Below the pieces are notes generated by a model that was not told the origin of the DNA, did no database searches, and saw only the letters and a program-made list of their open reading frames with translations. DNA of 46,078 nt from Syntrophomonadaceae bacterium (GTDB lineage: Bacteria; Bacillota; Syntrophomonadia; Syntrophomonadales; Syntrophomonadaceae): positions 1-46,078 of the forward strand of contig JAAYJK010000008.1 of NCBI GenBank assembly GCA_012522955.1, in the 5' to 3' direction. Made by a program: the position numbers and the translations under genes. Of the stretch, positions 30,538 through 37,830 are shown piece by piece (position 1 is the first letter of the stretch; each line of letters starts with the position of its first letter).

Positions 30538-30732
30538 AAAAAACACCCCACCGAGCCGTGGTCGCCGTGGGTTTAACCTGCTTTGCAGGTGGGTGCCTTC
30601 CCGCGCAATTGATGTGTCCCCATACAGGGCATGCAGGCCTTACGCGGAGTTCAGGCTCCCTAAGTGTTGGTGTTGGAAAAACTTTTCCGGCTTCTCACGT
30701 ACACAGCAGGGATTCTCGCTCAATCTCTGTTT
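30538..30732 (-). ncRNA. ssrS: 6S RNA (ssrS / bsrA type)
   Basis: The aspS-tcdA gap holds a GC-rich, structured minus-strand element of about 195 bases with its own promoter upstream and a T-run at its 3' end. The ends can pair through ATTGAGC near the 5' end and GCTCGGT near the 3' end, with G-U pairs, leaving a long internal hairpin-rich region. Length, closing stem and position match 6S RNA, which lies between aspS and yrvM in Bacillus. 6S RNA binds sigma A RNA polymerase and serves as a regulatory decoy. The exact ends are inferred from promoter and T-run. Confidence 0.75.
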
Positions 30733-33915: not shown

Positions 33916-35400
33916 CTAATTTAAGGCCCAGAGCTTGTCAACTTTGCGTTTTATCAGCTTTTCTATTGATTCCACATAAGCTTGTGGATCTTTAGGCTGG
34001 TAAAAGGAAGAAAGCCGCCAATCCAGGGGACGGATAAACTTGCTGGCTGCACCTCCCCCCAAACCGATGATGGTCTGCCTTTCTTCCATCATCTGTATAT
34101 TGTAGATACATTCATCTCCCGGCTGGGCATAACCGATATTCTCCATGGCCGCTGACATGTACTTTTGCCGGTACATATAGTAAGGCTGGTAATCGTCTGC
34201 CCGCAAGCAGGCGGAAAACAATTCCACCCCTTTTTGCACTTGGCTTACCTGGTGCTCCTTGCTTCCTGTTGCTTCTGCCTCGGCCATGAGGGAACCCCTT
34301 TTACGAGCCAAGGTATGAACAGTTACGTTATCTGGGTCTAATTCGAGAATCTTCTCTGCTGTGTAAAGATATTCCGGGATGCCTTCTCCCGGTAATCCCA
34401 CTATTAAATCCATATTAAGTTTTTTGATACCTGCTGTTCTTACCCATTCAACCGATCGCAACACTCCTTTCTGATCATGATTCCGGCCTATCCTTTTTAA
34501 GGTGGAATCATTCATGCTTTGAGGATTAACGCAAATCCGATTTACCCCGGCTTGTTTCATAAGCATTAACTTAGTGGGGCTCAGGGTATCCGGTCTGCCT
34601 GCCTCTACTGTGATCTCCTGAGTTAGCGGGCTGATGAAGCGTTCTTGCAACAAATCCAACAAGGCTTCCAGATCCGCTTCGGAGAGCACAGTAGGGGTAC
34701 CTCCGCCGATGTAAATATTTTGAATGGCTATCCCCTGTTCTTGCAGATAAACTCCGATCTTCTCCATTTCATAATGCAGGGCCCGTAAAAAGGGTTTTAG
34801 CTGTAGCTCGTAGTTGCTTAACACTGCAGCCGGAAAAGAACAATAATAACAACGACTGGGGCAAAAGGGAACCCCAATGTATACACTCAGTGATTTCCGA
34901 GCCTGTTCCCGGGACAACAAAAAAGCCCGGTTATTCAAGGCTACCTCCAACAATAGGGCAGCTTTGTCTGCTTGCAGCATATAATCCTTCTGCAAAATCT
35001 GCTCTATTTTATCCGGGCTGAATCCTTCATCCAATAAACGATGCACCAGTTTAACCGGTCTTACCCCGGTCAACAGGCCGTAGGGATTAATGTTTCTCCC
35101 GGTGTGCTCACAGAGCAAATGGTAGGTAAAACGGCGGGCCAGCCACTTGCCCTCCTGGCTCAACTCCTCCTGATCACCCAATGCGTGCTTTTCACTCTTT
35201 AGGGTTTCTTTGTCTTTAGCCTTTATGTCCCCCCTGATACAGAGTGTATTTTCATGCCAGGCCATATTTATCTGGATGCCAACTTCCTCCTGAGGGTTGG
35301 AGCCGACTATAATCCGGCACCCAGGAAAAGCCAGTCGGATCAATTCATGTAAAGAGTTATAAAGTTGTTCCGGCTTAAAATTACAATAAATTAACATCAT
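33916..35400 (-). CDS. hemZ: Radical SAM coproporphyrinogen III oxidase-like protein HemZ
   Basis: This 494-residue radical SAM enzyme carries the HemZ arrangement: an N-terminal domain of about 170 residues, then the cluster motif C180-PSR-C184-YY-C187, IYIGGGTPTVLSEADLEALL and GLPGEGIPEYL. The family is named for oxygen-independent coproporphyrinogen oxidation, but many members are not proven haem enzymes, and no other haem gene is near. The start overlaps the pheA stop (ATATGATG), so the two are coupled. Confidence 0.88.
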   Translation of the reverse strand: MMLIYCNFKPEQLYNSLHELIRLAFPGCRIIVGSNPQEEVGIQINMAWHENTLCIRGDIKAKDKETLKSEKHALGDQEELSQEGKWLARRFTYHLLCEHTGRNINPYGLLTGVRPVKLVHRLLDEGFSPDKIEQILQKDYMLQADKAALLLEVALNNRAFLLSREQARKSLSVYIGVPFCPSRCYYCSFPAAVLSNYELQLKPFLRALHYEMEKIGVYLQEQGIAIQNIYIGGGTPTVLSEADLEALLDLLQERFISPLTQEITVEAGRPDTLSPTKLMLMKQAGVNRICVNPQSMNDSTLKRIGRNHDQKGVLRSVEWVRTAGIKKLNMDLIVGLPGEGIPEYLYTAEKILELDPDNVTVHTLARKRGSLMAEAEATGSKEHQVSQVQKGVELFSACLRADDYQPYYMYRQKYMSAAMENIGYAQPGDECIYNIQMMEERQTIIGLGGGAASKFIRPLDWRLSSFYQPKDPQAYVESIEKLIKRKVDKLWALN

Positions 35401-36218
35401 ATATCTACCTTTCGACGATTATAGGAACCTAAAAATTTAAAGTCATGACAATAATACCGCAGTTCTTCCAGAGCCTGGTTTAACAGTTCCTGGGCACCAC
35501 CCACCTCAACTTCAATATAAAAGTAAAACCTACCCTGCTTCTTGGCATGAGACCGGGATTCAATTTTAATCAAATTTAGATTCTTAAGGGCAAAAATCTC
35601 CAGAGCTTTATATAGACTACCTGGGGTATCCGGCAGGGAACAGATCAAGCTGGCTTTTTCCCCGGCCCTGATATGAGGACTCTCTCTGCCAATATGCAAA
35701 AAGCGAGTAGCATTAGATTGGTTTTGTATATCCATTTCTATAACTTTCAGGCCATAAATACCTGCCGCCCTTAAGTTGCCAATAGCAGCTGCCTTTCTGC
35801 TCTCGCTCCCAGCGATCTGCAAGGCTTGGGCCGTACTACTGCTTACTTCGGTTCTAACACCACTCAAATGGTGGTGAATGAAATCTGAGCATTGCAGCAA
35901 AGCCATGGGATGAGATATGAGAAGTTCCAGCTCTTCCCCGACATATTTTTGTGCCCCTATTAGGTGCTGGCGTACAGGCATCACTATTTCCCCCTTGATA
36001 CCTACCGGGTATTCTAACAGACAATTAAGACAGACCTCTAGGGACCCGGCCTCAGAATTGTCAATGGGAACCATTAAATCTTTCACTTCTCCTCCCCCTA
36101 ACATGTGAAACAGGGCAGGGATACTGGGTGCAGCAGCTACTGTTACCTCTGGCCCCCAATACAACTTGGCTGCCTCTTCACTGAAGGTACCCCTTGGCCC
36201 CAAAACCCCACACAACAT
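35397..36218 (-). CDS. pheA: Prephenate dehydratase
   Basis: This 273-residue enzyme converts prephenate to phenylpyruvate for phenylalanine. The catalytic domain opens with LGPRGTFSEEAA and includes the active-site SNATRFLHIG (TRF motif). The C-terminal ACT domain (about 190-265) has LPDTPGSLYKALEIF and IESRSHAKKQGRFYFYIEVE, where ESRS replaces the common ESRP that binds Phe for feedback inhibition. No chorismate mutase domain is fused. It starts 1 bp after the aroF stop, under the Phe T-boxes. Confidence 0.95.
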   Translation of the reverse strand: MLCGVLGPRGTFSEEAAKLYWGPEVTVAAAPSIPALFHMLGGGEVKDLMVPIDNSEAGSLEVCLNCLLEYPVGIKGEIVMPVRQHLIGAQKYVGEELELLISHPMALLQCSDFIHHHLSGVRTEVSSSTAQALQIAGSESRKAAAIGNLRAAGIYGLKVIEMDIQNQSNATRFLHIGRESPHIRAGEKASLICSLPDTPGSLYKALEIFALKNLNLIKIESRSHAKKQGRFYFYIEVEVGGAQELLNQALEELRYYCHDFKFLGSYNRRKVDI

Positions 36219-36219
36219 A

Positions 36220-37062
36220 TTATTTTACCCTCCTTCCGCAAGCTCGAGCTATGGGATCGAGTTCCCGCATCAACTGACTGAATCCTTTGGGAGTAAGTGA
36301 TTGCGGTCCATCTGAGAAGGCTTTTTCCGGGTGGGGATGGACCTCTACCATAATACCATCTGCACCGGCGGCCAAAGCAGCTCGAGCCATAGGATTAACC
36401 AAGCTTCTTACTCCGGTTCCATGACTGGGGTCTACCATAACCGGCAAATGAGATATTTCCTTCACCAAAGCCACCCCGGATAAATCCAGGGTATTGCGGG
36501 TCCAGGGTTCAGCACTTCTTAATCCTCGCTCGCACATAATAACCTGATGGTTGCCCCCAGCCAGTATATATTCTGCCGCCAACAGCCATTCCTCTATAGT
36601 TGCTGATATTCCTCTTTTGAGCAATACCGGTTTATCAAGTCGGCCTAGCTTTTTCAGTAGGGAGTAATTATACATATTGCGAGCTCCTACCTGCAAGACA
36701 TCTGTATAATCTACCACCAGTTCAATGTCTTGGCTATCCATCAGCTCGGTAACCACCGGCATATTCATTTCCTGCCCCACCCGAGCCAATATCTTGAGAC
36801 CCTCCTCCCCATGTCCCTGGAAACTGTAGGGCGAAGTGCGGGGTTTATATGCTCCTCCCCGTAAGATGGAAGCGCCGGCTGCTCTGACCTTGAAAGCCGT
36901 TTCCTTTAATAGCTCTTCACTTTCAATTGCACAGGGTCCAGCTACTACTACAGTTTTTTCCCCTCCTACTATACAGCCCTTTATGTTCACCTGTGTATTC
37001 TGGGGATGCATAGCACGCGAGACCAATAAATGACTGTTTTCTTTAACCAATAACTGATTCAT
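36220..37062 (-). CDS. aroF: 3-deoxy-7-phosphoheptulonate (DAHP) synthase, AroA type I-beta
   Basis: This 280-residue enzyme joins PEP and erythrose 4-phosphate to begin aromatic amino acid synthesis. It shows [39 protein letters not shown] and [13 protein letters not shown], typical of the short KDO8P-like DAHP synthases. The ATG at 37062 follows AAGGAGGT. About 50 N-terminal residues precede the barrel, as in family members with a small regulatory region. It is the first gene after two T-box leaders, so its expression should follow tRNA-Phe charging. Confidence 0.95.
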
Positions 37063-37068
37063 GAGCAA

Positions 37069-37280
37069 ACCTCCTTAAATATTTCATGGCCCCCTAACAT
37101 TAGCCATTAATTGACTTATGCTTGCGAGTGAAGATTTAAGATCGCTTGGGATTGCTTGTAAGGGCAAGCTGGCTTTAGTTGAGGCCAATTAAAACTTGAA
37201 ATAAGTTCGCTTTCCCTTGCAGAATCGCCCTGTTCCTTGTGCCAATCTTAAGTCTGCACCCATGAAGTTATTTTCCCATT
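37069..37280 (-). other. Leader between second T-box terminator and aroF
   Basis: These 212 bases are transcribed ahead of aroF only when both T-boxes read through. They contain a 24-codon frame (37189-37263) ending in Tyr-Phe-Lys-Phe, small hairpins such as GCTTG...CAAGC near 37154-37169, and the aroF ribosome binding site. No promoter or longer gene is evident. Confidence 0.45.
37189..37263 (-). CDS. Possible leader peptide (24 aa, Phe/Tyr near the end)
   Basis: An ATG at 37263 opens MGADLRLAQGTGRFCKGKRTYFKF, stopping at TAA 37189-37191. Three Phe and one Tyr fall in the last eleven residues, in a transcript for Phe synthesis genes. The ribosome binding site is weak (TGGGAA about 8 bases upstream), and I see no attenuator with a T-run after it, so it could be chance. 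Confidence 0.25.
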   Translation of the reverse strand: MGADLRLAQGTGRFCKGKRTYFKF

Positions 37281-37508
37281 AAAAACAAATAACCCCTCAT
37301 CCGTATAGGGACGAGAGGTATAATAACTTCCCGCGGTACCACCCTGATTGGCATAGATACCCACTTAAACAAGATACGGGATAACTATATCTCATAACCA
37401 AGGGACTAAGACAAGGGTAAGGGCTACCCGGGAGTAGGCTTTGTCGACCTCGGCTGGAATTAGTTTAGCGAAATTCACTAATCCTGGCCAGGCTGTTGTC
37501 AAACCCCA
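37281..37508 (-). promoter_or_regulatory. Second T-box leader, probably tRNA-Phe, with reduced Stem I
   Basis: The T-box GGGTGGTACCGCGGG is at 37330-37344, followed by a terminator with a 10-bp stem (ACCTCTCGTCC / GGATGAGGGGT) and TTATTTGTTTTT at 37281-37319. Upstream, GTATCTT.TTTAAG.GGG matches the same region in the first T-box, so the two modules look duplicated. The pattern GAA-T-TTC-G at 37469-37476 would give a TTC (Phe) specifier. Only about 30 bases separate it from the first terminator, leaving little room for a normal Stem I 5' strand. Confidence 0.75.
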
Positions 37509-37510
37509 AA

Positions 37511-37795
37511 AATAAAAAAAGCTCTCTATCCTCTATGGGACGAGAAGCGTTTTGCTGCCCGCGGTACCACCCAATTTGCCATTTGGCCCGCTTAGAATAA
37601 GATACAGGAAATATCCGATATCCCCTCTCTTTTAACGGTAAGAGTTCCGCCACAACCTACTTGCAAATGTTTCAGCCGGGTGCTCCTGAGTGAACTTCAA
37701 TAGGCTTCCTTATGGAAATGCTTACAGCCGATGACATCTCTTCTCTGTATAATTTCACCCATCTACTTTACTCATTCATTGCATTTATCATATAT
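37511..37795 (-). promoter_or_regulatory. First T-box riboswitch, probably tRNA-Phe
   Basis: This is a full T-box leader. The base of Stem I pairs GGGTG with CACCC, the 5' side has an AGAGAAGAGATG S-turn-like stretch, and the 3' side has GAA-G-TTC-A with TTC at 37692-37694 as the specifier (Phe). The T-box GGGTGGTACCGCGGG is at 37558-37572, and the terminator GCTTCTCGTCC...GGATAGAGAGC with TTTTTTT is at 37511-37548. Uncharged tRNA-Phe should favour the antiterminator and allow aroF-pheA transcription. Confidence 0.88.
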
Positions 37796-37801
37796 GACGC
37801 A

Positions 37802-37830
37802 ATTTTATCACATAATTGTCGGCAAGTAAA
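37802..37830 (-). promoter_or_regulatory. Promoter of the T-box/aroF operon
   Basis: On the minus strand TTTACT (37825-37830) is followed after 17 bases by TAAAAT (37802-37807), putting the start near 37795, just upstream of the first T-box Stem I. Confidence 0.6.

Follow-up and report, generated by a model that had tools for sequence, protein, structure and literature searches.

The leader of aroF-pheA on the minus strand of the window, by which we mean the whole 46,078-nucleotide stretch of Syntrophomonadaceae DNA analysed here, is on balance probably a partially tandem Phe T-box in which one decoding module (Stem I, Stem II and Stem IIA/B) would serve two platforms in turn, as a relay (Table 1). 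The one-sensor, two-platform layout, and the ability of one strand (A) to pair with either a local partner (P1) or a distant one (B), can be read from the sequence, and from these we infer the relay itself. Vitreschak et al. in 2008 reportedly described partially tandem T-boxes as a class with duplicated terminator-antiterminator elements. Such leaders resemble that of the window in that antiterminator/terminator units are repeated behind a single decoding module, and their mode of action is stated as unknown in the accessible part of a more recent account (Zhang 2020, PMC7583486). The alternative pairing of A with P1 or B is not described in the accessible passages on this class, a scope that leaves Vitreschak et al. 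2008 outside, and no description of one aptamer with two platforms, or of strand exchange, in T-boxes was found in the literature searched. The layout is thus a known one, and the exchange helix is the candidate mechanism added here; if true, a platform relay would account for the working of partially tandem T-boxes.

Table 1. Features of the aroF-pheA leader and its surroundings, in window coordinates except for the last row.
Feature	Position	Strand	Basis or remark
Candidate sigma-70 promoter	37802..37830	(-)	-35 TTTACT, extended -10 TG..TAAAAT; consensus scan, 9/12 matches with TG
Stem I, sole tRNA-decoding module	37690..37788	(-)	RF00230 alignment
AGUA of Stem I	37758-37769	(-)	RF00230 alignment
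Specifier GAAG-UUC-A of Stem I	37690-37698	(-)	UUC kept in 29/29 complete aroF leaders
Stem II with GAA/AGUA S-turn	37650-37682	(-)	RF00230 alignment; Stem II through IIA/B, 37627..37682
Stem IIA/B with F-box CCGUUA	37627-37649	(-)	RF00230 alignment
Strand A, AGGGGAUAUCGGAU	37613..37626	(-)	5' strand common to two alternative helices
P1 half, UUCCUGUAUCUU	37599..37610	(-)	Local partner of A, module 1
Platform 1 (Stem III, T-box, terminator 1)	37521..37591	(-)	RF00230 alignment
T-box of platform 1, GGGUGGUACCGCGGG	37558-37574	(-)	RF00230 alignment
Terminator 1	37521-37548	(-)	U-run at 37508-37520
Lineage-specific insert, limits approximate	37395..37505	(-)	Alignment with congeners L015-L017
Hairpin within insert	37447-37493	(-)	Loop contains chance 'specifier' GAATTTCG (37469-37476)
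Strand B, AUCCCGUAUCUU	37371..37382	(-)	Putative long-range partner of A, start of platform 2; extended complementarity 37371-37393
Platform 2 (Stem III, T-box, antiterminator, terminator 2, U-rich tail)	37281..37364	(-)	cmscan and alignments; without a Stem I of its own
T-box of platform 2	37330-37346	(-)	
Terminator 2	37291-37319	(-)	
aroF, DAHP synthase	36220..37068	(-)	NCBIfam NF006421/TIGR01361, above cut-off
pheA, prephenate dehydratase	35397..36218	(-)	NCBIfam NF008865, 215.3 bits, slightly below the cut-off of 219
tRNA-Ala(GGC) in leuS leader	L005:1556-1631 = G000:C136:97186-97261	(-)	Inside T-box 97131-97419 (-)

The two modules differ greatly in completeness. Module 1 is a full T-box, matched by RF00230 with 107.4 bits against a gathering threshold of 93 (37788-37533, minus strand) and comprising AGUA, the specifier GAA-G-UUC-A, Stem II, F-box, Stem III, T-box and terminator. 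Module 2 taken alone reaches 32.8 bits in cmscan, under gathering (E=1.2e-5); only its part from Stem III to the terminator fits RF00230 well, and it lacks Stem I, Stem II and the F-box. An earlier, sequence-only reading of this DNA, which had itself suggested the RF00230 search that yielded these scores, described two complete T-box/terminator modules in front of aroF-pheA. The two antiterminator/terminator platforms and their coordinates stand, whereas module 2 is not a full T-box. The same reading took the region from Stem III to the antiterminator to be shared by duplication, and indeed module 2 repeats Stem III, T-box, antiterminator and terminator (37364-37281); it was also right that the second module lacks the usual Stem I. 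UGGU is present in each of the two platforms and is complementary to ACCA, the 3' end of tRNA-Phe(GAA) in this genome. The hairpin between F-box and Stem III of module 1 consists of strand A and P1, and platform 2 opens with a second 3' half, B, with no second A present. Between terminator 2 and the start of aroF there are about 200 nt of extra sequence (window 37085-37290) that are missing in congeners and occur as a single copy in the genome.

Comparison with the aroF leaders of relatives, as had also been suggested, gave a uniform picture. Orthologues were collected with the AroF protein in Syntrophomonadaceae, and 29 of them have a complete leader (the contig of a thirtieth ends too early); all 29 have one Phe (UUC) Stem I followed by two platforms. 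The distance from T-box to T-box is 102-122 nt in 25 of the 29, so that platform 2 begins 20-40 nt after terminator 1, with no room for a Stem I. The arrangement is that of a partially tandem T-box, namely one Stem I/II and then two platforms, in each of which antiterminator and terminator exclude one another. The second complete Stem I with a conserved specifier that would mark a fully tandem T-box is absent from these leaders, their spacers being 20-40 nt long and the window's insert not being conserved.

The window itself has a T-box spacing of 228 nt because of this insert of about 100 nt, and its spacer from terminator 1 to platform 2 measures 146 nt, versus 20-40 nt in most relatives. 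Three other leaders with longer spacers (L027, L030 and L036) also carry additional sequence here, clearly unlike that of the window, and in all four the addition lies between terminator 1 and B. The possibility that the insert, or the sequence of about 200 nt before aroF, is a mobile repeat is rejected, both being single copy in the genome; a search for a second copy of the insert in the genome found none, and the insert and its hairpin are unique.

The insert also accounts for the apparent second specifier. A GAA-N-TTC-purine pattern had been claimed for both modules, with only some 30 bases between the first terminator and the second specifier. The claim holds for module 1, and the distance is correct, since GAATTTCG lies 31 nt downstream of the T-run of terminator 1; however, the motif sits inside the lineage-specific insert, and GAANTTC is absent from the corresponding spot in every family relative compared. 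The motif occurs 14 times in the window on both strands, with about 0.017 expected per 110 nt, for a match chosen post hoc. It would be extremely improbable, in our judgement, that platform 2 has a minimal Stem I of its own, a hairpin that would read tRNA-Phe through the GAATTTCG of its apical loop, in the manner of ultrashort actinobacterial T-boxes. The hairpin is moderately stable (z -2.0) with GAAUUUCG in its loop, the chance of the motif in a stretch of such length is about 1.5-1.7%, and in the ultrashort Stem I translational T-boxes of actinobacterial ileS, according to the accessible part of PMC7583486, the specifier can likewise occupy the apical loop. Yet the hairpin exists in one genome, while 28 other family leaders have the second platform without it; no AGUA, Stem II S-turn or F-box is found from the hairpin to platform 2; and the motif match is post hoc. 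As far as that source goes, platform 2 further differs from ultrashort T-boxes in lacking a conserved short Stem I or Stem II and in being a transcription terminator, and a conserved apical-loop specifier with Stem II was not found for it, the candidate being limited to a single genome. A second specifier in module 2 is thus rejected by comparison, and with it the earlier option of a minimal Stem I. As a caution, specifier-like motifs in inserts should not be taken for Stem I.

Platform 2 does not appear to be decaying. The comparison took in 34 leaders from the order, 29 of them collected through the AroF protein and 5 through the T-box pattern. In these, the T-box core of platform 2 hardly varies, antiterminator 2 is paired in 95.4% of cells, with no covariation because it is near-invariant, and terminator 2 is paired in 97.9% of cells. 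This conservation, together with the UGGU/ACCA match, argues for tRNA sensing over a plain terminator. The lack of a Stem I for platform 2 and the well-conserved terminator 2 would also be expected of a constitutive or fixed-efficiency attenuator that arose by duplication and caps expression without sensing tRNA, another option of the sequence-only reading. However, the near-invariant UGGU bulge and both antiterminator helices are unneeded by a plain attenuator, as is the maintenance of B as a partner of A, which makes this explanation distinctly unlikely. Since UGGU by itself is complementary to ACCA, platform 2 might instead be stabilised independently of Stem I, by the acceptor end alone of a second tRNA or of any uncharged tRNA with A73. 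Such a platform would lose amino-acid specificity, and the covariation between A and B would be left unexplained; we regard this as very improbable.

The remaining option of the sequence-only reading, that the second module borrows from the first, is the one supported: there is one Stem I per two platforms, and B is predicted to pair with strand A of module 1. Pairing of A with B and with P1 was counted in 38 distinct Phe leaders, with B located by GTAYC. A-B is paired in 95.0% of cells over 11 pairs, compared with 28-55% when slid, and A-P1 in 90.2% of cells. Cells of A-B changed on both sides number 21, versus 6.9 in shuffles, with two-sided changes in only 3 of the 11 pairs. In L049 and L050, a change from A-U to G-C at position a6 is matched in both P1 and B. 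Across the 38 leaders, A pairs with its own B at -18.9 kcal/mol, versus -15.0 with permuted partners (z -9.0, for a permutation that leaves phylogeny in). The putative A-B helix is thus supported by comparison across leaders. In folding energy, all 60 leaders compared favour A-B over the local hairpin, the loop cost not being counted, and in L025 the combination of A-B with antiterminator 2 is better than that of A-P1 with antiterminator 2 by 4.6 kcal/mol. With L025 otherwise unconstrained, A-P1 gives -83.5 and A-B -84.7 kcal/mol, next to a free fold of -85.0, and thermodynamics alone does not separate them.

When sequences were scanned for pairs of T-box cores some 100 nt from each other, the one-sensor, two-platform layout turned up in many Bacillota. 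Phe (UUC) leaders of this kind precede aroF, SSS-type transporters, PaaK-like ligases, LivK-like binding proteins or hemZ, these names being given from sequence resemblance. In the window, hemZ comes next after aroF-pheA; in L049, L050 and L062 the Phe tandem-platform leader stands directly before hemZ, as though the two aromatic genes had been lost and the leader retained. In one further region (L207:3370-3560), a single apparent Stem I with GAANTTC is followed by three successive T-box platforms, spaced by 92 and 88 nt. In Lactobacillaceae (L103, L107, L111-L113, L125, L127, L145, L169, L182 and others), leaders before amino-acid ABC transporter genes, several of them with CAC (His), again have one Stem I and two platforms, and their A and B form 11-17 uninterrupted pairs in most cases, extending into the loop of the local hairpin. 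In the His type, two-sided changes occur in 13 of 17 A-B pairs, counts that lean towards structure because the fragments were put in register by complementarity. With the register set in the same way, A-B is paired in 85.4% of cells, where slid versions reach 53% at most, and covariation scores 0.561, compared with 0.19 in shuffles; own A-B also beats permuted partners (z -10.5, phylogeny again being left in). Because its sequences differ from the Phe type, A-B in Lactobacillaceae may have arisen separately. Among 21 mixed tandem-platform leaders (Alicyclobacillus, Veillonellales and others) A-B is hardly apparent, with -13.2 kcal/mol for own pairs and -12.6 kcal/mol for shuffled ones, and the idea that A-B is universal in tandem-platform leaders is not supported by this group.

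One may argue that the single Stem I serves both platforms without any switching, A-B being a spacer fold or the remnant of a duplicated P1 half. B duplicates the P1 half, and part of its fit to A could be a relic of duplication, given its homology to P1; moreover, some tandem leaders (the 'other' group) do without A-B. Nevertheless, at position a13 B pairs with A in 94% of leaders and P1 in 58%, so that B is there the better partner, and L086 has lost its P1 partner but kept its B partner. In addition, the pairing in Lactobacillaceae enters the hairpin loop, which is unexpected of a P1 relic. A fold of this kind without exchange therefore seems unlikely.

We thus prefer a relay in which the two helices succeed each other. 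During transcription of platform 1, A would be paired with P1, and uncharged tRNA-Phe bound to Stem I would stabilise antiterminator 1. As B is transcribed only past terminator 1, A-B is possible only in read-through transcripts; once the polymerase has passed this point, B would emerge and displace P1 by strand exchange. With A-B formed, platform 1 would become a looped-out hairpin, and platform 2 would take its place relative to the tRNA, beside Stem I/II. The same Stem I-bound tRNA-Phe site would then be queried again, to stabilise antiterminator 2. The insert of the window would fall within the loop closed by A-B and is hence expected to be tolerated. With charged tRNA, transcription could stop at either terminator, which should lower the leak and sharpen the response, as an AND gate on one signal. 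Such serial interrogation of one Stem I-bound tRNA-Phe would combine low leak with a steep response. That one tRNA-bound aptamer is passed between platforms by co-transcriptional exchange from A-P1 to A-B, and that this is shared by the Phe leaders of several Bacillota lineages and, in a different sequence, by the Lactobacillaceae leaders before amino-acid ABC transporter genes, is a tentative proposal to which we give slightly less than an even chance.

Related designs are known among riboswitches. Fully tandem T-boxes (trp, ilv and thrS leaders), in the accessible part of PMC12452182, likewise have two serial terminators for the same tRNA and an expected sharper response, but they use two complete sensor and regulatory domains where the window leader has a single sensor. 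Tandem small-molecule riboswitches, as far as the accessible part of PMC9481103 describes them, likewise derive AND-type or pseudo-cooperative logic from serial terminators; unlike the window leader, they have a separate aptamer for each platform or several aptamers on one platform. A covarying exchange helix between one sensor and two platforms would be a specific, testable mechanism and a possible case of double-checking in a riboswitch. The helix also provides a rule for spotting such leaders from their sequence; the Rfam model misses them, with module 2 under gathering.

Two other RNAs were observed as well. In the same genome, the T-box leader of leuS, whose specifier is CUC, holds a complete tRNA-Ala(GGC) gene at the position of Stem III, flanked by GACA..UGUC. 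The pattern of a tRNA end plus T-box occurs in 39 of 63 genomes of the class, in three families, and tRNA-Ala was confirmed in 6 of 7 loci checked (further loci: L239, L241 and L243-L246). The copy in the leuS leader is the only full-length close match to tRNA-Ala(GGC) in this genome, as is an identical copy in G037, and appears to be the sole tRNA-Ala(GGC) of each. This embedded tRNA, which looks more surprising than the tandem Phe leader, raises the question of how tRNA maturation and leader function coexist. Finally, the window contains a 6S RNA (RF00013, 81.4 bits) at 30541-30715 on the minus strand.
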